This document shows positions 1 to 26,864 of a stretch of 64,000 bases of DNA, in pieces (the first letter of the stretch is position 1; the number at the start of each line of letters is the position of its first letter). Source of the DNA: a virus. Where the stretch lies: positions 1-64,000 of the IMG/VR virus record IMGVR_UViG_3300025646_000024; one strand, 5' to 3'. A program made the translations under genes and the position numbers. The notes beneath the pieces are model-generated. The model was not told the DNA's origin. It was given only the letters and a program-made list of their open reading frames with translations, and searched no databases.

Positions 1-102
1 TTTGGTCGTACTCAATTAGATGTGAGTGGTTTTGATGTTGAAGAGATGACCGATGAAGACAAAGAAGAATGGAAGGACTTCTGGGAGAATGACGATGACT
101 GA
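1..102 (+). CDS. 3' end of an unidentified gene
   Basis: An open frame enters from the left edge and ends at TGA 100-102, giving 33 visible C-terminal residues that are strongly acidic (ending WENDDD). The start lies outside the window. The stop overlaps the ATG of the next gene (ATGACTGA), the spacing used by most genes here, which supports it being real. I cannot assign a function from this fragment. Confidence 0.6.
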   Translation, partial: FGRTQLDVSGFDVEEMTDEDKEEWKDFWENDDD

Positions 103-298
103 ACGAGCACAAGAACTACGAGAGATTATCCGTCAGGCACTCTACCGAACTCCTATGACCGAAGAGTGTGAAGTTCCTATTACCGCTTCTGCTTTGAGGT
201 ATGTTGCTGACCGACTCTATACTGACTGGGGAGAACTTCAACACCCAGCATCAGTCATTCATGATATTGCTAATGAATTGGAGGATGATGAACTATGA
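95..298 (+). CDS. Small hypothetical protein (67 aa)
   Basis: The ATG at 95 is chosen over an upstream in-frame ATG at 53 because it overlaps the previous stop, as is usual in this operon. The product is a helical, charged 67-residue protein starting MTERAQELREI and ending in an acidic tail. Its stop overlaps the next ATG at 295. No domain is recognised. It belongs to the early cluster of small accessory proteins. Confidence 0.65.
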   Translation: MTERAQELREIIRQALYRTPMTEECEVPITASALRYVADRLYTDWGELQHPASVIHDIANELEDDEL

Positions 299-588
299 CT
301 GATTATTATGATTTTTTTGTTCCAGAGAACAAGTTTATTGTTCCTGTGACTGTTCTTCTTTCTAATGCTGACCAAGTAAAACTACGAAAGTTCATCAACC
401 TCCATTATCTTGGTGATGAGGATGCTAATGAGTTTGTAGATGGAACTTACAAAGCAAAGTATCCAGAGAAAGAAACCACAGAGTTTCAGAATGCAGTATG
501 GAAAACTAATGTTGGTTATACAGTAAATCTTGCTGTAGAGTTTGATGAGAAAGGTGTCCCTACATTTGAGGTTGTGAAAAATGAATAA
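295..588 (+). CDS. Hypothetical protein (97 aa)
   Basis: Starts with an ATGA overlap on the previous gene. It is a soluble-looking, aromatic and acidic protein with mixed alpha/beta character (for example MTDYYDFFVPENKF, then VGYTVNLAVEFDEKG near the C-terminus). There is no signal peptide or membrane segment. I recognise no family. The dense overlap with both neighbours indicates co-translation in one early operon. Confidence 0.7.
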   Translation: MTDYYDFFVPENKFIVPVTVLLSNADQVKLRKFINLHYLGDEDANEFVDGTYKAKYPEKETTEFQNAVWKTNVGYTVNLAVEFDEKGVPTFEVVKNE

Positions 589-688
589 TCAAGAAGAAAT
601 AGGATGGGCATTACCAGTAGGATTTGTCATCATTAATATTATTGCTATTATTCTTGCTTTAACAGGAAATCTACCAGACGGAGTTTGA
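581..688 (+). CDS. Small single-pass membrane protein (35 aa)
   Basis: A 35-codon gene overlapping the end of the previous CDS by 8 nt and touching the next one. Residues 11-28 form one hydrophobic segment rich in Ile, Val and Leu between a polar N-terminus (MNNQEEIGW) and a short polar tail. This fits a small inner-membrane phage protein. Function unknown; the tight overlaps and clean membrane segment are the only evidence that it is expressed. Confidence 0.5.
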   Translation: MNNQEEIGWALPVGFVIINIIAIILALTGNLPDGV

Positions 689-885
689 TTGTGGTTGAGA
701 AAATTAAGTTTGTTAGTGTAACACGCACTATTTGTCCTAAAACAGGAATTCATTATTTGGATGCCATCGGGGAGGATGGTTTCCATTATATGGCACAAAT
801 GGTTCATAATATCAATAGTGATGAACCCTGGTTATTGTACAAGAAAGTGTGGTATAAAGACCCTCAACACCCCTACGATATTTGA
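685..885 (+). CDS. Hypothetical protein (about 66 aa)
   Basis: No ATG is available at the front. Either TTG at 685, overlapping the previous TGA, or GTG at 691 would start it. The product is a compact beta-rich protein (EKIKFVSVTRTICPKTGIHYLDAIGE) with a single Cys and a C-terminal aromatic stretch. No family recognised. It continues the early operon. Confidence 0.5.
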   Translation: MIVVEKIKFVSVTRTICPKTGIHYLDAIGEDGFHYMAQMVHNINSDEPWLLYKKVWYKDPQHPYDI

Positions 886-897
886 TGGAGAAACCAA

Positions 898-1125
898 ATG
901 AAATTTAATAATGAAGCACTGATTGCTCTGTGTATTATGTCTGGATTTACTCTTATCCTTGCTACCATATTTTCTGGGCTTTCTACTGAAGCACAAAAAC
1001 AAAGTTTGTATCAGAAAACCTACGACAAATCTATGGAATGTCGTATTACTTTCAAAGGTAGAAGTCCAACAGAAGTAAATTCTTATTGTGGTGAAATTCC
1101 TAAACTTGAGGATTTTTTGAAGTAG
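898..1125 (+). CDS. Membrane-anchored small protein (75 aa)
   Basis: A short polar N-terminus (MKFNNEA) is followed by a hydrophobic segment at about residues 8-27 (LIALCIMSGFTLILATIF), which could be an uncleaved signal anchor. A polar domain with two Cys (C49 and C64) that could form a disulphide in the periplasm follows. It is the last gene before the first homing-endonuclease element, and its stop lies immediately upstream of a late promoter. Function unknown. Confidence 0.65.
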   Translation: MKFNNEALIALCIMSGFTLILATIFSGLSTEAQKQSLYQKTYDKSMECRITFKGRSPTEVNSYCGEIPKLEDFLK

Positions 1126-1133
1126 TATAAATA
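1126..1133 (+). promoter_or_regulatory. T4-type late promoter TATAAATA
   Basis: Exact match to the T4 late -10 consensus TATAAATA, starting one base after the stop of the preceding gene. It lies upstream of the left arm of the structured element, so RNA from this site would contain both arms and the terminator hairpin. Confidence 0.6.
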
Positions 1134-1143
1134 CTAATGTCTG

Positions 1144-1223
1144 TTGGTACTGCAATTCTCTACAGACAAGATTAGGTGCTCTTTTGGGCACCTTTTCTAT
1201 TATAAATAATAATGCAGTACCAA
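1144..1223 (+). promoter_or_regulatory. Structured leader of homing endonuclease: inverted repeat enclosing a terminator and a late promoter
   Basis: The perfect 11-bp arms TTGGTACTGCA (1144-1154) and TGCAGTACCAA (1213-1223) enclose a terminator-like hairpin, AGGTGC...GCACCT (1174-1193, followed by TTTTCT), and an exact late promoter TATAAATA (1201-1208). The right arm ends 10 nt before the ATG at 1234. Transcripts entering from upstream could fold the right arm away from ribosomes, whereas RNA started at the internal late promoter lacks the left arm. A second copy of this architecture precedes the GIY-YIG gene at 8353. Confidence 0.7.
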
Positions 1224-1233
1224 TAGAATATAA

Positions 1234-1944
1234 ATGAACTATCTAAAGATATATTGTAACCTTATAAGGAAAGCAGAGAACAGAACTCCTCCTGAAGGTT
1301 ATACAGAAAAACACCATACATTTCCAGTAAGTATCTTTGGAAAAAATAATAGAATTGTAGTGCTTACGGCAAGAGAACATTATGTTGCACACGCACTATT
1401 GGAAAAAATTTGTATTCAAAGATATGGATTGCATCATTATAGAACTAAAAAAATGAATAACGCACATATAATGATAAAATCTAGTGGTTATTGTAACTCT
1501 TATCTATACGAAACTGCTAAAATTAGAAGAAGTGAAAATATGAGGAGAAATCTTCATAGATTAGGTACGAGGCATACAGAAGAAACCAAAAAAATATTAA
1601 GTGAAAAACATAAAGGCAAAACTCATTCAAAAGAAAGTAATGAAAGTAGAAGCAAAAAACTGACAGGAAAAAATAATCATAACTATGGAAAAAGGTGGTG
1701 GAACGATGGAAATGGAAATGAAGTTTTCTCTATTGATTGCCCCCAAAACTGGATTCCTGGTCGCAATGAAGAGGCAAAGAAAATAAGCACAGAAACAAAT
1801 ATAGGTAGAAAATGGTGGAATGATGGCAATGGTAATACTAAATTTTGTAGAGAGTGTCCTGGGAACGGATGGGTCCCTGGAGTGAGTGAAGAAAGAAGAA
1901 AAAATATAAGTAAATCAATGAAAAATTTATCTAAAAAAACTTGA
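1234..1944 (+). CDS. HNH-type homing endonuclease
   Basis: The 236-residue protein opens with an HNH-like motif, YTEKHHTFPVSIFG (about residues 23-36), followed by the H-Y-V-A-H segment typical of cyanophage free-standing HNH enzymes. A NUMOD3-like DNA-binding helix region follows (GTRHTEETKKILSEKHKG, near 110-128). The C-terminal third contains two copies of a GKRWWNDGNGN...C.....W.PG module (about residues 148-175 and 188-218). Such enzymes cut cognate DNA lacking the gene and promote its spread. The high lysine content and low GC of the gene, and its own late promoter, fit a mobile insertion into the early operon. Confidence 0.85.
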   Translation: MNYLKIYCNLIRKAENRTPPEGYTEKHHTFPVSIFGKNNRIVVLTAREHYVAHALLEKICIQRYGLHHYRTKKMNNAHIMIKSSGYCNSYLYETAKIRRSENMRRNLHRLGTRHTEETKKILSEKHKGKTHSKESNESRSKKLTGKNNHNYGKRWWNDGNGNEVFSIDCPQNWIPGRNEEAKKISTETNIGRKWWNDGNGNTKFCRECPGNGWVPGVSEERRKNISKSMKNLSKKT

Positions 1945-1990
1945 ATGGAAATAATATGTTGCTCCACTTTGTAAACTGTCACACTAGCAC

Positions 1991-2019
1991 TTGCGGGTTT
2001 CTTCCTAATCCGTTATGAT
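1991..2019 (+). promoter_or_regulatory. Host-type sigma-70 promoter, TTGCGG-N17-TATGAT
   Basis: The -35 TTGCGG (1991-1996) and -10 TATGAT (2014-2019) are separated by exactly 17 bp. It restarts early transcription downstream of the homing endonuclease gene, ahead of the ATG at 2042. Confidence 0.6.
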
Positions 2020-2041
2020 ACTCCTATCTACAAGAAACATT

Positions 2042-2242
2042 ATGCGTTTGACCGCACACGAACTCGCAGTTATTATTGATACACTCAACCATTCTCTAAT
2101 GGTATCAAACTGGAATGGATATTATACTGCCCAATCAAGGGAAAATGTAAGGAATACGATTGCTGTGATTATGAATGAAATGAGTGTAGAGATTATCACA
2201 GACAAACCAAACTTCACTATTGATGCTGACGCAGGTATTTAA
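2042..2242 (+). CDS. Conserved small phage protein (66 aa)
   Basis: The start is ATG 2042 rather than 2015, because 2015 overlaps the -10 box of the promoter just upstream. The protein begins MRLTAHELAVIIDTLNHSL and is helical. I believe similar small proteins, with the pattern LTAxELAxIIDTLxHSL, are common in T4-like cyanophages, but no function is attached to them. It is the first gene of a long run of overlapping small genes up to 9 kb. Confidence 0.7.
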   Translation: MRLTAHELAVIIDTLNHSLMVSNWNGYYTAQSRENVRNTIAVIMNEMSVEIITDKPNFTIDADAGI

Positions 2243-2243
2243 A

Positions 2244-2459
2244 ATGACTGACATAAAACTCTGTAAGGATTGTAAGCACTACAAGAAAGATTGGTATGCT
2301 CGTATCACTGGATATGGAGACACATTTGATATTTGCGTCAATCCTCATTTGATTGCTGTAAATCCTGTGAGTGGAAAGACCAAAGGTGATTTTTGTGATA
2401 CAATGAGAAAGTATCACGGATGTGGTATGGAAGGTAAGTATTGGGAGGCACGAAAATGA
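2244..2459 (+). CDS. Small cysteine-rich putative zinc-binding protein (71 aa)
   Basis: Starting at ATG 2244, one base after the previous stop, the protein reads MTDIKLCKDCKHYKKDW and carries a CxxC pair (about residues 7-10). Further cysteines lie near 32, 52 and 61. The arrangement suggests a small zinc ribbon, although the ligands are not proven. The CxDCKHY opening is one I associate with many phage and bacterial short proteins of unknown function. The next gene overlaps its stop (ATGA). Confidence 0.7.
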   Translation: MTDIKLCKDCKHYKKDWYARITGYGDTFDICVNPHLIAVNPVSGKTKGDFCDTMRKYHGCGMEGKYWEARK

Positions 2460-2554
2460 GCAAATCTGAAACATTCCTCATTATCTCACAGATTTATTGT
2501 GTAGGTGATCTTATTGTTGAAGGTAAAAAAACATTTTTATATGGTGTGGGATGA
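2456..2554 (+). CDS. Very small hypothetical protein (32 aa)
   Basis: A 32-codon frame that begins inside the stop of the preceding gene and ends inside the start of the following one (ATGA on both sides). The middle is hydrophobic (FLIISQIYCVGDLIV) and might insert in the membrane. Overlap geometry is the main support. Confidence 0.45.
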   Translation: MSKSETFLIISQIYCVGDLIVEGKKTFLYGVG

Positions 2555-2736
2555 AAGAACTTGAAATAGGTTCTAAATGGAAACATAAGACCTCAAATGA
2601 TGTTTATGTTGTGAAAGAACAGTATTCTCATAGAGTAGTGTTAGAGCACGAACTTACTGGTGAAACTGTAAAACTAACTGTGGGACATTTTAACCCTCAA
2701 GGTTTTGATGAGTATGAGTATTATGAAACTAACTAA
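2551..2736 (+). CDS. Small beta-rich protein (61 aa)
   Basis: The sequence MKELEIGSKWKHKTSNDVY followed by VVKEQYSHRVVLEHELTG suggests an SH3-like small beta barrel, as in many short phage proteins that begin with G-x-x-W-x-x-K. It ends with an acidic Tyr-rich tail (EYEYYETN). No specific function is assigned. The start overlaps the previous stop. Confidence 0.65.
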   Translation: MKELEIGSKWKHKTSNDVYVVKEQYSHRVVLEHELTGETVKLTVGHFNPQGFDEYEYYETN

Positions 2737-2824
2737 ACTAATCTTTGATTATAAGTGGTATTATTTGAGGACACTTGAAGAACTGGCACAGGGAGACCCC
2801 ACAAGGTCTCCTATTGCCTTATAA
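2723..2824 (+). CDS. Doubtful 33-aa frame overlapping a hairpin and promoter
   Basis: A short frame, MKLTKLIFDYKWYYLRTLEE..., overlaps the previous gene by 14 nt and ends within the TATAAT at 2820. The 3' half coincides with the hairpin at 2792-2811, so it may be non-coding. Kept only because overlapping micro-genes are the rule here. Confidence 0.25.
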   Translation: MKLTKLIFDYKWYYLRTLEELAQGDPTRSPIAL

Positions 2825-2825
2825 T
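2792..2825 (+). promoter_or_regulatory. Hairpin followed by a consensus -10 TATAAT
   Basis: The perfect 7-bp stem GGAGACC/GGTCTCC (2792-2798 with 2805-2811) is followed 9 nt later by TATAAT (2820-2825). No -35 hexamer is evident at the 17-bp position. This hairpin-then--10 layout recurs at 18.6, 22.8, 23.1, 23.8 and 25.4 kb. It probably separates two transcription units. Confidence 0.5.
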
Positions 2826-2852
2826 ACTCTCGTACACACAAAGGAACATTTT

Positions 2853-2999
2853 ATGGACGATTGGATGCTTGAGTTACGAACTGTTGAGTTAGAGAAGGAT
2901 GTTATATGTGAGACAACTTATCGTAAAATTATTTCCCACGACAACTTTGATTACGATGAACACCTCGTTGATGACAAAATTAGGATGAATTATTTCTGA
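2853..2999 (+). CDS. Small acidic protein (48 aa)
   Basis: ATG 2853 is preceded by AAGGAAC, a plausible ribosome-binding site, and lies downstream of the TATAAT at 2820. The earlier in-frame ATG would sit before that promoter. The product, MDDWMLELRTVELEKDV..., is acidic and mostly helical with no recognised domain. Its TGA overlaps the ATG of the membrane protein that follows. Confidence 0.6.
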   Translation: MDDWMLELRTVELEKDVICETTYRKIISHDNFDYDEHLVDDKIRMNYF

Positions 3000-3199
3000 T
3001 GACTAAAACACAGGTGTTTCAAATTTCTTGGTTTATCATGAAATATGGATTTTTAATTTATGTTTCTTGTCTTTTACTGAACTTGGGTGTCATTATTCCA
3101 TCAATTCTTATTTGGGGTTTTGTTTTTGTTGATTTGGGGTATGAATTTTTAAGAATGGTTGAGTATTATCAACCAACAAACCGTGAGAAAGTAAAATGA
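2999..3199 (+). CDS. Two-pass membrane protein (66 aa)
   Basis: Two hydrophobic segments, at about residues 13-32 (MKYGFLIYVSCLLLNLGVII) and 34-48, are separated by only a short Pro-Ser turn, and a polar, basic C-terminus follows. This fits a small hairpin-like inner-membrane protein. No family recognised. The gene starts inside the stop of the previous gene. Confidence 0.65.
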   Translation: MTKTQVFQISWFIMKYGFLIYVSCLLLNLGVIIPSILIWGFVFVDLGYEFLRMVEYYQPTNREKVK

Positions 3200-3221
3200 C
3201 TGAATACCTGAAACTACGCTA

Positions 3222-3416
3222 ATGCCATTCTTTCCTGATTGCTATGACGAATGGGGTCTTTATAAGATTACCTACGATGGAGACCACAAGATGTATGAAA
3301 TGCTATTTGAGGGCACGGAAGAAGAGTGCCGTGAGTATGCTTATGAGAACTACACAGATAAGGAGCAAGGTGAAATGTGCCTGATGGATTATGAAGCAAG
3401 GGAATGGGATGTATGA
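3222..3416 (+). CDS. Small acidic protein (64 aa)
   Basis: An acidic protein rich in Glu, Asp and Tyr, MPFFPDCYDEWGLYKITYDG..., with the segment EEECREYAYENYT suggestive of a helix. Its predicted charge is strongly negative. Acidic early proteins of this kind sometimes act as inhibitors by mimicking nucleic acid, but nothing here shows that. It overlaps the following gene at ATGA. Confidence 0.6.
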   Translation: MPFFPDCYDEWGLYKITYDGDHKMYEMLFEGTEEECREYAYENYTDKEQGEMCLMDYEAREWDV

Positions 3417-3613
3417 CTAAAGACGAACTCAAGAATTTTGATCCATCAACCGTACAATACTACCAAGTAGCATACAAATGTAACTTTGCCACAGATCCAC
3501 AAGAGTATCGCACACAAAATCATGGTACAATGAGTATGGCACTTGCTTCTGCTCACTTGCTTCATGCACGAGGACAGTTCACTATTATCTCTGTAACACC
3601 AATCTACAAATGA
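3413..3613 (+). CDS. Small hypothetical protein (66 aa)
   Basis: The start at ATG 3413 overlaps the previous TGA and is preferred to an in-frame ATG at 3404. The sequence MTKDELKNFDPSTVQYYQVAYKCNFATD contains a stretch typical of short beta proteins. The C-terminal part, SMALASAHLLHARGQFTIISVTPIY, looks like a helix followed by a strand. The family is not known to me. Confidence 0.6.
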   Translation: MTKDELKNFDPSTVQYYQVAYKCNFATDPQEYRTQNHGTMSMALASAHLLHARGQFTIISVTPIYK

Positions 3614-3792
3614 CTGAACGCAACTTTAAAAAAGAACTTTCTCACTCCGTCTATTATGATATGGAGAATGGGAATGATAGTGAAACAATTGATTATGATT
3701 GTCTGATTGCTATTATTACTGAATTGTGTGATAGAATAGAACAGTTGGAGAAGGACAACGAACTTCTGAAATCTTATGCTTGGGAACAATGA
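3610..3792 (+). CDS. Small acidic coiled-coil-like protein (60 aa)
   Basis: Starts inside the preceding stop. The N-terminal half is polar (MTERNFKKELSHSVYYDMENG). The C-terminal 25 residues, LCDRIEQLEKDNELLKSY, show leucine spacing of a short coiled coil, so it may dimerise. Function unknown. Confidence 0.6.
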   Translation: MTERNFKKELSHSVYYDMENGNDSETIDYDCLIAIITELCDRIEQLEKDNELLKSYAWEQ

Positions 3793-4493
3793 CTGAGCAC
3801 AATTTACCAGATAAAGATGATGCTCCGTGGTTGGATACAACCTATGATGGTTTTATGACCCATGGGGAAATGTTAGAAGTTGCTGCTCAACGAGAAGCAG
3901 AAAACAAAGCACTTGAAGCATTAGACAAACTCCATGAGGAAAATGGTGAAGGTATGAAACAACTTGCCGAACACGAAAGGATCAAAGTCATTCAAACTGC
4001 TTGTGGTGCCATTGACAAATATTCTGATGCACTTAAAGCACTTGCTGAAACTGAAAAGGTAGAGTTGCGAGCAGAATTGGAAGCAAAGAAGAAAGAAAAC
4101 TTTCAGCTGGTTGCTGATGCTTGTATGGTAGAATATGAACAGAAGTATCAGCGTGATGTATTCCCAGTGGATGAATACTGGGTGTATATGATTTCTGAAT
4201 ACTTTGGCACAGGTGAAGGTCAAACTACCTGTATTATGATGACACAGGCAACACCATATGGTGATGACTTCACAGAAGAAAATCGCTATGTGCCTATCAA
4301 CTCTAAGCAGTATCGTGCTGTAAGGGAGTTTCACAAACAGTTTGGCACTTGGTATCTCCATGGTCTGAAGTTCCTCAGTAAAGAAGATTTCTTTGCTGAA
4401 TGTTCATATTACATCCCACCTGTGATGATGAAACTCTCTAATAAGAGTTGCTTCAAAGATTTCTACACCCGTGTTCATTACAATTTCTCATGA
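3789..4493 (+). CDS. Hypothetical protein with long helical N-terminal half (234 aa)
   Basis: The start at ATG 3789 overlaps the stop of the previous gene. Residues 1-110 are Glu/Lys/Ala-rich and probably a long helix or coiled coil (KALEALDKLHEENGEG, ALKALAETEKVELRAELEAKKK). Residues 120-234 are globular and aromatic-rich with several Cys (EYWVYMISEYFGTGEG, FAECSYYIPPVMMKL). I do not recognise the family. It is the largest unassigned protein of this early operon and overlaps its neighbours at both ends. Confidence 0.7.
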   Translation: MTEHNLPDKDDAPWLDTTYDGFMTHGEMLEVAAQREAENKALEALDKLHEENGEGMKQLAEHERIKVIQTACGAIDKYSDALKALAETEKVELRAELEAKKKENFQLVADACMVEYEQKYQRDVFPVDEYWVYMISEYFGTGEGQTTCIMMTQATPYGDDFTEENRYVPINSKQYRAVREFHKQFGTWYLHGLKFLSKEDFFAECSYYIPPVMMKLSNKSCFKDFYTRVHYNFS

Positions 4494-7872: not shown

Positions 7873-8252
7873 TGATTTCTGACTCGGTGTTTGACCAGGC
7901 TATTGCAACTGCAAAGTCTTCTCCATCTAAAAAGCAAGTTGGTGCTCTTCTATTGAGGAGAAATAAAATTATTACAACTGCAGTTAATCTTGAAACTAAG
8001 TCTCATCCACTCCAAGCTAAGTTTGCTGAACGAGTAGGACTTTGGCAAAAAATATATTTACATAGTGAGATTCATGCATTAATTAAATGTAAAGAACCCG
8101 TAGATACTATTGTCGTTGCAAGAGTAAATCCTCAAAATAAATTACGAAATGCAAAACCATGTCCTATATGTTCACTTGCTATCGAAGAATCGGGCATTAA
8201 CCACATATATTATTCAACTGATGATGGATTTATGTACAAATACAAAGCATAA
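7872..8252 (+). CDS. Zinc-dependent nucleotide/cytidine deaminase-family protein
   Basis: The 126-residue protein carries the two signatures of the cytidine/deoxycytidylate deaminase fold: H-S-E in LHSEIHALIK (about residue 57, zinc ligand and catalytic Glu) and PCPIC (about residues 97-101, two Cys ligands), with GALLL and ARVN strands in place. It is shorter than T4 dCMP deaminase (Cd, 193 aa), so the substrate (dCMP, free base or RNA) is uncertain. The start overlaps the kinase stop by one base. Its stop codon begins the second homing-endonuclease element. Confidence 0.8.
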   Translation: MISDSVFDQAIATAKSSPSKKQVGALLLRRNKIITTAVNLETKSHPLQAKFAERVGLWQKIYLHSEIHALIKCKEPVDTIVVARVNPQNKLRNAKPCPICSLAIEESGINHIYYSTDDGFMYKYKA

Positions 8253-8253
8253 A

Positions 8254-8340
8254 TATAAATGCCTGAGTTGGGTGCAATCTTCGCAGGTAAAGAAGGAGCT
8301 TTATGCTCCTTCTTCTAGTATAAATATTACTGCACCCAAC
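8254..8340 (+). promoter_or_regulatory. Structured leader of GIY-YIG endonuclease: inverted repeat, terminator hairpin and late promoter
   Basis: Components in order: TATAAATG (8254-8261), left arm GTTGGGTGCA (8267-8276), a perfect 10-bp hairpin AAGAAGGAGC/GCTCCTTCTT (8290-8314), an exact late promoter TATAAATA (8319-8326), and right arm TGCACCCAAC (8331-8340). The ATG follows 12 nt later. The layout and spacing copy the element at 1126-1223 (4 nt between late promoter and right arm in both), while the arm sequences differ but remain perfectly complementary. Confidence 0.7.
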
Positions 8341-8352
8341 TTAAGAGCAGTT

Positions 8353-9042
8353 ATGTATTCTCCAAGAATATACACATATAAAATTACCTTTGAAGAGGTT
8401 CCGTACTACTATTATGGAATGCATGAAGAAAAGGTATATGATGAACCATATTGGGGTTCCCCAGTAACAAATAAATGGTGCTGGAATTTTTATACGCCAA
8501 AGAAACAAATATTGGAAGTATTTTCTACTAGAGAAGATGCATATAAAGTAGAAATGCGATTAATCAAATCAGTTTTAAATGTTGATAAATGGTGCCTCAA
8601 TATGAATTGTGGAGGGATTATTTCTCGTGAAATTTATGTTAAAACTGGTACAATGACTTATGAACTTGGGATAGGAATACATGCACAATCACCAAAGGAG
8701 CGCAAAGAGGTAGCAAAACTTGGAGGTAAAATGTCTAAATCTTTGGGAGTAGGTGTGCATGGCAGAACAGATAGTCAGATGACTTTAGATGCAAAAAAAT
8801 CTGTAGAAACTCATCGAAAAAACAATACAGGATGTTTTGATTCAAACCATTCGTTGCAAAGAAAAGGAGGAATCATTCAAGGAAAAAAGAATGTTTCAAA
8901 TGGACATTTGCAACAATTATCAAAATTAAAATATATTTGTTTAGAAACTGGATTTATATCAAGTGCCAGAGGATTATCTGTATATCAAAAAAATAGAGGA
9001 ATTTGTACTACCAAAAGAAAGCTATTAGATATGCCAATATAA
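8353..9042 (+). CDS. GIY-YIG-type homing endonuclease
   Basis: The start at ATG 8353 follows the late promoter at 8319. The longer frame reaching back into the deaminase gene would run through the terminator and is rejected. The 229-residue protein contains IYTYKITFEE then YYYYGMHEE...YWGSP, a divergent GIY-YIG core, and FSTREDAYKVEMRLIK, matching the family's second helix with the catalytic Glu. Gly/Lys-rich repeats follow (LGIGIHAQSPKERK, LGVGVHGRTDSQM) like NUMOD DNA-binding modules. The AT-rich, Lys-rich gene interrupts the RNA-repair cluster. A new sigma-70 promoter lies right behind it. Confidence 0.75.
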   Translation: MYSPRIYTYKITFEEVPYYYYGMHEEKVYDEPYWGSPVTNKWCWNFYTPKKQILEVFSTREDAYKVEMRLIKSVLNVDKWCLNMNCGGIISREIYVKTGTMTYELGIGIHAQSPKERKEVAKLGGKMSKSLGVGVHGRTDSQMTLDAKKSVETHRKNNTGCFDSNHSLQRKGGIIQGKKNVSNGHLQQLSKLKYICLETGFISSARGLSVYQKNRGICTTKRKLLDMPI

Positions 9043-26408: not shown

Positions 26409-26864
26409 ATGATTAAAAATAAAAAAATTTTGCCCACAAAATTTGACGGCTACTATGTTTCTGAAGACGGAAAAATTTTTACTGAGTGGCATTTAGTAAA
26501 TAATAATGGAAGATTTGGTTCAATCAGAGGAGAGCTGCGAGAAGTAAAATCTCATCCAAGAGGAGGATGTAATCCAAATGACAGATATTTAGCTGTAAAT
26601 ATTTCATTAAAAAATGACCAAGGAAAAACTATTAAGCAAATCAAATATTACTCACATAGACTCATAGCAGAGACTTTTATAGAAAACCCACAAAATTTGA
26701 AAGAAGTAGACCATATTGATGGAAACAAACAAAATAACTCAACAACAAATCTGAGGTGGGTAGATAGAAAAGAAAACCTAAAATGGATGATAGGAAATAC
26801 TTTTGGAAAAAATTTTCGACAAAAAAAATCCGAGAACCTTGTAGATTCTCGGAGAAAAAAATAA
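26409..26864 (+). CDS. NUMOD4/HNH homing endonuclease
   Basis: The 151-residue protein has an N-terminal NUMOD4-like part (FDGYYVSEDGKIFTEWHLV) and an HNH core: YSHRLIAETFIENPQNLKEV, then DHIDGNKQNNSTTNLRWVDR, with H (in HRLIAE), DH and N of the ββα-metal motif present. It is short and AT-rich, sharply distinct from the GC-rich genes to its left. ATG 26409 is the first Met after a late-like TCTAAATAC (near 26361). An extension to 26301 would cross the operator region. Its last codons contain a terminator for the opposite strand. Confidence 0.85.
   Translation: MIKNKKILPTKFDGYYVSEDGKIFTEWHLVNNNGRFGSIRGELREVKSHPRGGCNPNDRYLAVNISLKNDQGKTIKQIKYYSHRLIAETFIENPQNLKEVDHIDGNKQNNSTTNLRWVDRKENLKWMIGNTFGKNFRQKKSENLVDSRRKK
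26829..26853 (-). terminator. Minus-strand terminator inside the HNH gene
   Basis: TCCGAGAA/TTCTCGGA (26829-26836 with 26846-26853) is a perfect 8-bp hairpin. On the minus strand it is followed by a run of eight T (complement of the A-run before 26829), so it ends transcription of the kinase gene at 26876-27514. Those bases also encode the HNH C-terminus. Confidence 0.7.

Follow-up and report, generated by a model that had tools for sequence, protein, structure and literature searches.

A tandem leader with a candidate small RNA precedes homing endonuclease genes in T4-like cyanophages

The 108-bp leader of a homing endonuclease gene in the window, which is the whole 64,000-base stretch of DNA analysed here out of a viral record of 80,263 bases, is probably a tandem small RNA-target module that would repress translation of the nuclease, both in trans and, on readthrough RNA, in cis. 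We hold this reading with moderate confidence. It draws on the anatomy of the leader, on covariation, on pairing specific to one RNA strand, and on predicted cognate specificity, all of them read from sequence. The module is one of many copies in a large, recurring family, and the idea of an independent version, in the sense of a one-off, was dropped.

Direct reading of the 108 bp (Table 1) resulted in a late promoter (P1), a left arm, a terminator-like hairpin, a second late promoter (P2), a right arm, and the ATG, in the order given by the original prediction. The arms, previously put at 11 bp, have a perfect core of that length (TTGGTACTGCA, 1144-1154, and TGCAGTACCAA, 1213-1223), and the actual stem is longer, with 15 bp including one G.U. 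The exact arm 11-mer occurs twice in the whole 80,263-base record, both occurrences being the inverted pair. As had been proposed, this 15-bp stem would hold the right arm just before the AUG on readthrough RNA; the segment 1136-1260 folds at -41.3 kcal/mol (z -7.0), and 0 of 200 shuffles equal it. It also agrees with the earlier claim that P2 lies between the arms by sequence, and that the mRNA from this internal promoter would lack the left arm. The local hairpin and the second whole module of the window had been missed. Predicted folding energies are -24.3 kcal/mol for the putative small RNA and -42.3 kcal/mol for this RNA in complex with the start of the mRNA. The window shows no enrichment of the motif TATAAATA alone (5 observed against 8.0 expected), and terminator-like sites are slightly above shuffles (3 against 1.6 in window positions 1-4000). 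The informative part of the leader is its arrangement, not the single motifs, and the non-chance nature of this arrangement follows, as far as sequence can tell, from the relatives. The arms of the second module differ from those of the first (TGAGTTGGGTGCA/TGCACCCAACTTA).

Table 1. Features of the two modules in the window and of related architectures elsewhere (window coordinates unless a locus is named)
Feature	Position	Strand	Basis or remark
P1, late promoter TATAAATA, predicted to drive the left-arm RNA	1126..1133	+	read directly; TAAATA in relatives
Predicted ~61-nt small RNA, hairpin plus terminator	1139..1199	+	P1 spacing as in T4
Local hairpin, left arm in loop	1138..1168 (stem 1138-1144/1162-1168)	+	folding, covariation
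Left arm (loop and 5' strand of local hairpin)	1140..1154	+	folding, covariation
Putative intrinsic terminator of the small RNA	1174..1199 (hairpin 1174-1193 and U-rich tail)	+	sequence; stem covariation in alignment A1
P2, late promoter TATAAATA, predicted to drive the nuclease mRNA	1201..1208	+	read directly; invariant in A1, whose rows were picked partly by the P2 motif
Right arm, predicted 5' end of the nuclease mRNA	1213..1227	+	folding
Target gene, homing endonuclease, 236 aa	1234..1944	+	PHROG 655; weak NUMOD3
Second whole module	8248..8357	+	relatives scan, model R1
Second module, P1	8248-8255	+	
Second module, left arm	8264-8276	+	
Second module, terminator	about 8290-8314	+	limits by eye
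Second module, P2	8319-8326	+	
Second module, right arm	8331-8343	+	
Second module target, homing endonuclease, 229 aa	8353..9042	+	PHROG 314
Simple T4-like hairpin before EndoVII-like gene	L166 about 26518-26575 (S-SRM01 126,172)		score 45
Simple T4-like hairpin before nuclease relative	L043 340-410		score 32.5
Simple T4-like hairpin	L116 near 6543	minus	
Class-2 copies	L165 27800-27863 (S-SRM01 77,600-77,663); L061, L125, L275-L350		

Promoter, hairpin, and terminator look like a separate gene for an RNA of ~61 nt, as the left arm has, at the sequence level, the own promoter and own terminator that define a small-RNA gene. TAAATA stands 24-31 nt before the left-arm end in 96 of 96 copies among the matches listed; these were chosen blind to P1 from a set of 97, with L074 (arm score below 20) set aside. 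NATAAATA is described as the cyanophage late motif (PMC2984593). Of 24 structural genes picked by hand in the isolate S-SRM01, 17 have N[AC]TAAATA within the 100 nt before them, whereas random positions gave NATAAATA in 3.3% and NCTAAATA in 0.8%. T4 late transcripts start 13 nt after the first promoter base. With this spacing, the predicted P1 start falls on the first bases of the local hairpin, the hairpin position being part of the rule by which the architecture was detected, and the predicted P2 start falls on the first right-arm bases. In 128 of 140 elements, the right arm begins at predicted position -1 or +1. In the predicted folds, the loop holds at least 6 left-arm nt in 137 of 140; the 5' side of the local stem contains a mean of 3.5 left-arm nt and the 3' side none, consistent with pairing that begins at the loop and goes on to open the hairpin. 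A 5'-terminal stem (at least 4 of the first 8 nt opening pairs) is present in the minimum free energy structure of 72 of 72 elements, and the distance from right-arm end to AUG has a median of 9 nt (70 elements; range 5-16 nt).

With the nuclease as the starting point, 40 IMG/VR loci were collected. Most of them carry the same leader, with arm sequences that are different yet still complementary; a simple hairpin is seen in L039-L041 and L043, and another architecture in L026-L028. A scan for the terminator-promoter junction, with no arm content in its pattern, returned at least 119 stretches with at least 121 matches, of which 97 were distinct usable copies after leaving out duplicates and four matches at contig ends. 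As a result, 93 of the 97 distinct copies among the matches listed had an arm score of at least 22, compared with 6.3% of 2000 non-cognate pairs. Selection by the architecture rule (P1, hairpin at the expected start, T-run, and P2) gave arms in 140 of 149 matches against 3.9% of 3000 non-cognate pairs, and with the GCA/TGC anchors masked, 142 of the 149 still scored at least 15, against 15.1% of non-cognate pairs. The nine low-arm matches comprise four non-elements by eye, three with interrupted arms, L074, which lost its right side, and L150, which has no matching right arm. Altogether, 75 distinct natural arm pairs were found.

Single copies depart from the common form. On the minus strand of L150 near 6192, a small-RNA unit (arm end ACTGACCGCA) stands without a matching right arm downstream and is possibly a solo small RNA. 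L015 near 300-406 is a chimera with a left half of the TGTGTCGCA type and a right arm of the TGCGGTTTCAATAGA type, which are not complementary. Additionally, the G run of the terminator stem varies in length between the near-identical copies L016, L021, L023, and L025; the variation looks like slippage and could tune readthrough.

Arm sequences differ among copies but change together, as judged from alignments. The 97 copies were picked without regard to arms or local hairpin, with the terminator fixed by the search pattern. In their alignment (among the matches listed), 92.8% of arm cells are paired and 7 of 9 arm pairs are double-changed, and 86.6% of local-stem cells are paired with all 5 counted pairs double-changed. 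Over the whole structure, the same copies among the matches listed hold 333 double-changed cells against 92 when shuffled, and their covariation is 0.449, compared with 0.219 for shuffles (none of 500 came as high), and does not exceed 0.110 when slid. Further pair types in these 97 copies among the matches listed are no more numerous than in shuffles, as 399 of 500 reach their number. Alignment A1 has 66 rows, of which the two from S-SRM01 are incomplete; nearly all rows were picked for having arms, so that its pairing figures lean towards structure: 89.0% of arm cells paired (8 of 9 pairs double-changed), 95.1% in the local stem (5 of 5), and 87.4% in the terminator (7 of 8 stem pairs), with a covariation of 0.525 against 0.228.

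The mismatches tell the strands apart. With the register set by Watson-Crick pairs only, 50 distinct arm pairs among the matches listed contain 40 G.U, 2 C.A, and 27 other mismatches, whereas 263 non-cognate controls contain 187 G.U and 178 C.A. All 149 architecture matches gave 61 G.U against 6 C.A, and arm-selected copies gave 54 against 1, a count that leans towards structure. Because a C.A here is a G.T on the other strand, the excess of G.U indicates that the pairing is used as RNA of this strand.

Cognate specificity was predicted with R1, a covariance model built from A1 without arm pairs. R1 matched 30 of 32 records at 82 places, with none in the records of L043 and L040. The analysed set comprises 72 of these places, in 20 records with at least two each; ten singles were left out. 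A cognate duplex was found in 72 of 72 elements from the 20 records (weakest -18.5 kcal/mol), a result that is not independent of the junction and architecture counts, as many of the elements are of R1's own kind. In plain duplex energies, 59 of 254 within-genome non-cognate pairs reached -14 kcal/mol or lower and 10 reached -18 or lower, probably due to the terminator stretches; plain energies were replaced by the net hybrid energy (co-fold minus parts). The cognate pairs then had a mean of -14.8 (weakest -11.0), compared with a mean of -2.6 for within-genome non-cognate pairs, of which 2 of 254 were as strong, one being an identical-arm pair. Between genomes, 129 of 4858 non-cognate pairs were as strong as cognate ones. 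The own target ranked first in 70 of 72 elements, and the other two tie because their arms are identical.

There was no sign of selection for avoidance of cross-talk. Three cross-pairing pairs (score at least 22) were found within genomes against 3.4 expected (72 elements, 20 records, 5000 label permutations; P of as few, 0.55), and two against 2.8 expected when three likely orthologues were dropped. Identical right arms occur in 1 of 127 within-genome pairs, and the diversity of the right-arm pool suffices to explain this rarity.

The isolates with modules are S-SRM01, with six, and B23, with three (E 7e-6 to 4e-4); the arms are present in all three B23 copies, and the terminator-P2 region is altered by eye in two. 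No copy was found by R1, at E up to 0.1, in S-CRM01, Syn9, P-SSM2, S-PM2, or Vibrio phage VH1_2019. Borderline R1 matches in T4 (E 0.047) and Klebsiella phage KEN37 (0.083) were rejected, as by eye they are a plain terminator plus late promoter with neither local hairpin nor arms. In S-SRM01, six class-1 modules, one class-2 module, and one strong simple hairpin (126,148) precede nuclease-like genes. By hmmscan, the products of window ORFs 1234 and 8353 and eight of nine S-SRM01 proteins match homing, HNH, or EndoVII PHROGs (E at most 0.002); the product of ORF 1234 matches PHROG 655 at E 7.5e-30, its NUMOD3 match being under the Pfam cut-off. For the ninth S-SRM01 protein, gp152 (class 2), the matches were to PHROGs without an assigned function and, at a weak level (0.0073), to restriction endonuclease II. 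In other records, N-terminal similarity was the sole criterion for the targets, and for 2 of the 72 elements automated ORF calling found no ORF of 60 codons.

Clustering of whole proteins placed 67 of 70 in one cluster, probably due to common C-terminal NUMOD repeats. When 69 target proteins were re-clustered on their first 75 residues, eight N-terminal clusters resulted, five with at least four members, among which we take motifs seen by eye to be HNH-like and GIY-YIG-like. Four arms occur with more than one N-terminal cluster, and the leader thus seems to travel as a cassette regardless of nuclease type. NUMOD3 occurs six times (E 2.9e-39) in S-SRM01 gp114 (L165 12715-13473), a protein annotated as 'translation initiation factor 2' that also matches a homing endonuclease PHROG and is probably a misannotated homing nuclease.

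For the action of the module, we infer two transcripts, their contact in trans, repression as its sign, and a pulse as its outcome. Late promoter P1 would yield the small RNA (about 1139-1199), with the left arm in a hairpin loop followed by the terminator, and late promoter P2 would yield a nuclease mRNA whose 5' end is the right arm. The loop would pair with the 5' end of the mRNA, and the resulting helix could extend into the 5' strand of the small-RNA hairpin to 14-15 bp, ending 5-16 nt before the AUG and blocking ribosome binding. No strong Shine-Dalgarno sequence is visible by eye, so the strength of an initiation block by a 5'-end duplex is uncertain. On upstream readthrough RNA, the same pairing in cis would keep the nuclease gene off early. 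Late, repressor and mRNA would occur together, and a low level or brief pulse of nuclease would result, set by the strengths of P1, P2, and the terminator.

Arm pairing alone does not distinguish trans from cis, because both halves lie on one strand. In the stage switch originally predicted, early readthrough RNA hides the start and the P2 RNA is free late, with no role in trans. It is consistent with the strong cis stem, has a precedent in the control of I-TevI, segB, and mobE of T4-type phages according to one source (PMC2988022), and resembles the simple forms without P1 and terminator that precede other nuclease genes, two of them strong. Its arm pairing in RNA and its P2 mRNA without the left arm were retained; however, it leaves unexplained a late P1 on the left, repressing arm, which is present in all 96 copies among the matches listed. 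Moreover, the local hairpin covaries although it is in competition with the cis stem, and the terminator would be expected to stop most readthrough. A pure early/late switch is therefore rather unlikely. The own late promoter and terminator of the left arm point instead to a separate late RNA that could act alongside the mRNA, and since the local hairpin, late P1, and terminator have no evident cis-only role yet are conserved or covarying, a free small RNA is the simplest account. By their sequences, the orphan or chimeric copies (L074, L150, L015) count against the module reading.

Pairing of the small RNA with the 5' end of the mRNA might also protect or activate the message, as a shield against RNases, for the right arm is the predicted mRNA 5' end and duplexes at an RNA 5' end can stabilise RNA. 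We consider this improbable, as the duplex ends 5-16 nt before the AUG, inside the usual 30S footprint, and the T4-type precedents are described as repressing (PMC2988022, PMC3014915). An attenuator or riboswitch, with arms choosing between termination and readthrough, is suggested by a terminator between the arms. However, the arm pair encloses the terminator, and both fold together, so the two stems are not alternatives and the arms cannot serve as antiterminator; the downstream P2 also makes readthrough unnecessary, and this explanation is very improbable. The inverted repeat could finally act in DNA, as a nuclease operator or as a recombination or homing site, in line with the report that I-TevI binds an operator over its own late promoter (PMC2988022). 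This is extremely improbable with a strand-specific pairing (40 G.U against 2 C.A among the matches listed) and with four arms that precede nucleases of different N-terminal clusters; on these two observations, the arms were rejected as the DNA target or operator of the nuclease.

Among known systems, the precedent invoked by the original prediction holds, as related control is described for I-TevI, segB, and Aeh1 mobE in T4-type phages (PMC2988022). In the T4-type hairpins described (I-TevI, I-TevII, I-TevIII, segB, Aeh1 mobE, e, and soc), an upstream arm pairs with the start region, and an internal late promoter gives an mRNA without the upstream arm (PMC2988022, PMC3014915). By sequence, the leader is alike in having the start region in a stem with the upstream arm and a late promoter between the arms. 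The T4-type arm is described as lying on readthrough RNA, whereas here it would also have a late promoter, a local hairpin, and a terminator, and the left arm would thus not be restricted to early or middle readthrough RNA. The arms of the module also vary widely among copies, in contrast to the T4-type. On these sequence features, the module is not a plain member of T4-type hairpin control.

The c4 RNA of phages P1 and P7 lies upstream of ant on the same strand, is cut from the ant leader RNA, and controls the antirepressor and prophage immunity, with different sequences in P1 and P7. Its complementary stretches, probably in loops, are described as pairing around the ribosome binding site of ant mRNA, blocking translation and underlying heteroimmunity (PMC12197685). 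A complementary stretch in the loop of a structured small RNA is likewise predicted for the module. It differs from c4 in that small RNA and mRNA would each have an own late promoter, the RNA would have a terminator, and the target is a homing nuclease. By analogy, our best reading is that the module would work like the P1/P7 c4 RNA and serve several nuclease types in T4-like cyanophages. HEARO/OMEGA RNAs adjoin HNH nuclease genes and guide IscB-type nucleases, whereas the module RNA is matched to the leader of its own mRNA and stands before several N-terminal nuclease types. CfrI of cyanophage S-PM2, described as an RNA of ~225 nt antisense to psbA and a nuclease gene (PMC2984593, PMC12197685), is alike as a non-coding RNA adjoining a cyanophage homing-nuclease gene; however, R1 detects no module copy in S-PM2 up to an E of 0.1.

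No description of the module was found in the open-access PMC papers searched. A review of T4 post-transcriptional control states that T4 had yielded no functionally characterised small regulatory RNA acting in trans, and it hopes that related phage genomes will suggest small-RNA candidates (PMC3014915). The module is such a T4-like trans-acting candidate, with 75 distinct natural arm pairs and an isolate, S-SRM01, that has a named host strain. It gives a portable, sequence-defined handle on the self-limitation of selfish nuclease genes, and its naturally matched RNA pairs are usable as regulators. A wider picture is possible, although we put it forward tentatively and hold it doubtful: T4-like cyanophages would have a large family of small RNAs that act in trans, each encoded just before the one nuclease mRNA that it matches, with both RNAs late in an incoherent feed-forward pulse and arm groups moving between nuclease types, where a resident could silence an incomer with the same arm as an RNA-based immunity between selfish genes. 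If there is such cross-silencing, the spread of a given homing element on co-infection would depend on RNA specificity.

Other architectures accompany the module (Table 1). The simple forms have 16-20-bp arms around a late promoter, without a terminator. Two further simple candidates in S-SRM01, with P2 at 33,047 and 142,277, score 21.5 and 23, and five chance-like matches of score 20-22 lie away from nuclease genes; S-SRM01 matches of score 20-23 thus fall before two nuclease genes and in five other places, whereas all matches of score at least 25 are class-1, class-2, or strong simple hairpins. Class 2 has a GGGCnGCAA..TTGYGTAAGnCCCA hairpin with an arm in the loop and the right arm directly before the ATG, and its stem sequence is strongly conserved. 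From 52 distinct class-2 copies, 50 have a downstream late promoter and 50 an arm score of at least 20. It is weaker evidence, because its arms are less diverse and 43% of its non-cognate pairs also score at least 20. TAAATA or TAAACA within 26 nt upstream was found in 14 of the 52, and the class-2 promoter may therefore differ.

At the Rfam gathering score, no leader match was found in the window, L010, L016, L017, L018, L030, L033, L036, L042, L045, or L001, where the only matches were wcaG and two tRNAs; likewise, there was none in L165, L061, L026, L125, L270, or L274. Three sub-threshold matches lie in window positions 1000-1400. In L018 (2834-2915), the module stands directly after a tRNA gene, whose 3' end overlaps P1 by ~2 bases. 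The annotated CDS start of S-SRM01 gp297 (L045 1487-1541) lies inside the leader, and the start kept in relatives is 54 nt further downstream (192,520). The wcaG RNA of S-SRM01 (L045 448-545; Rfam RF01761, 101 bits) overlaps a short hypothetical CDS and stands just before a glycosyltransferase gene.
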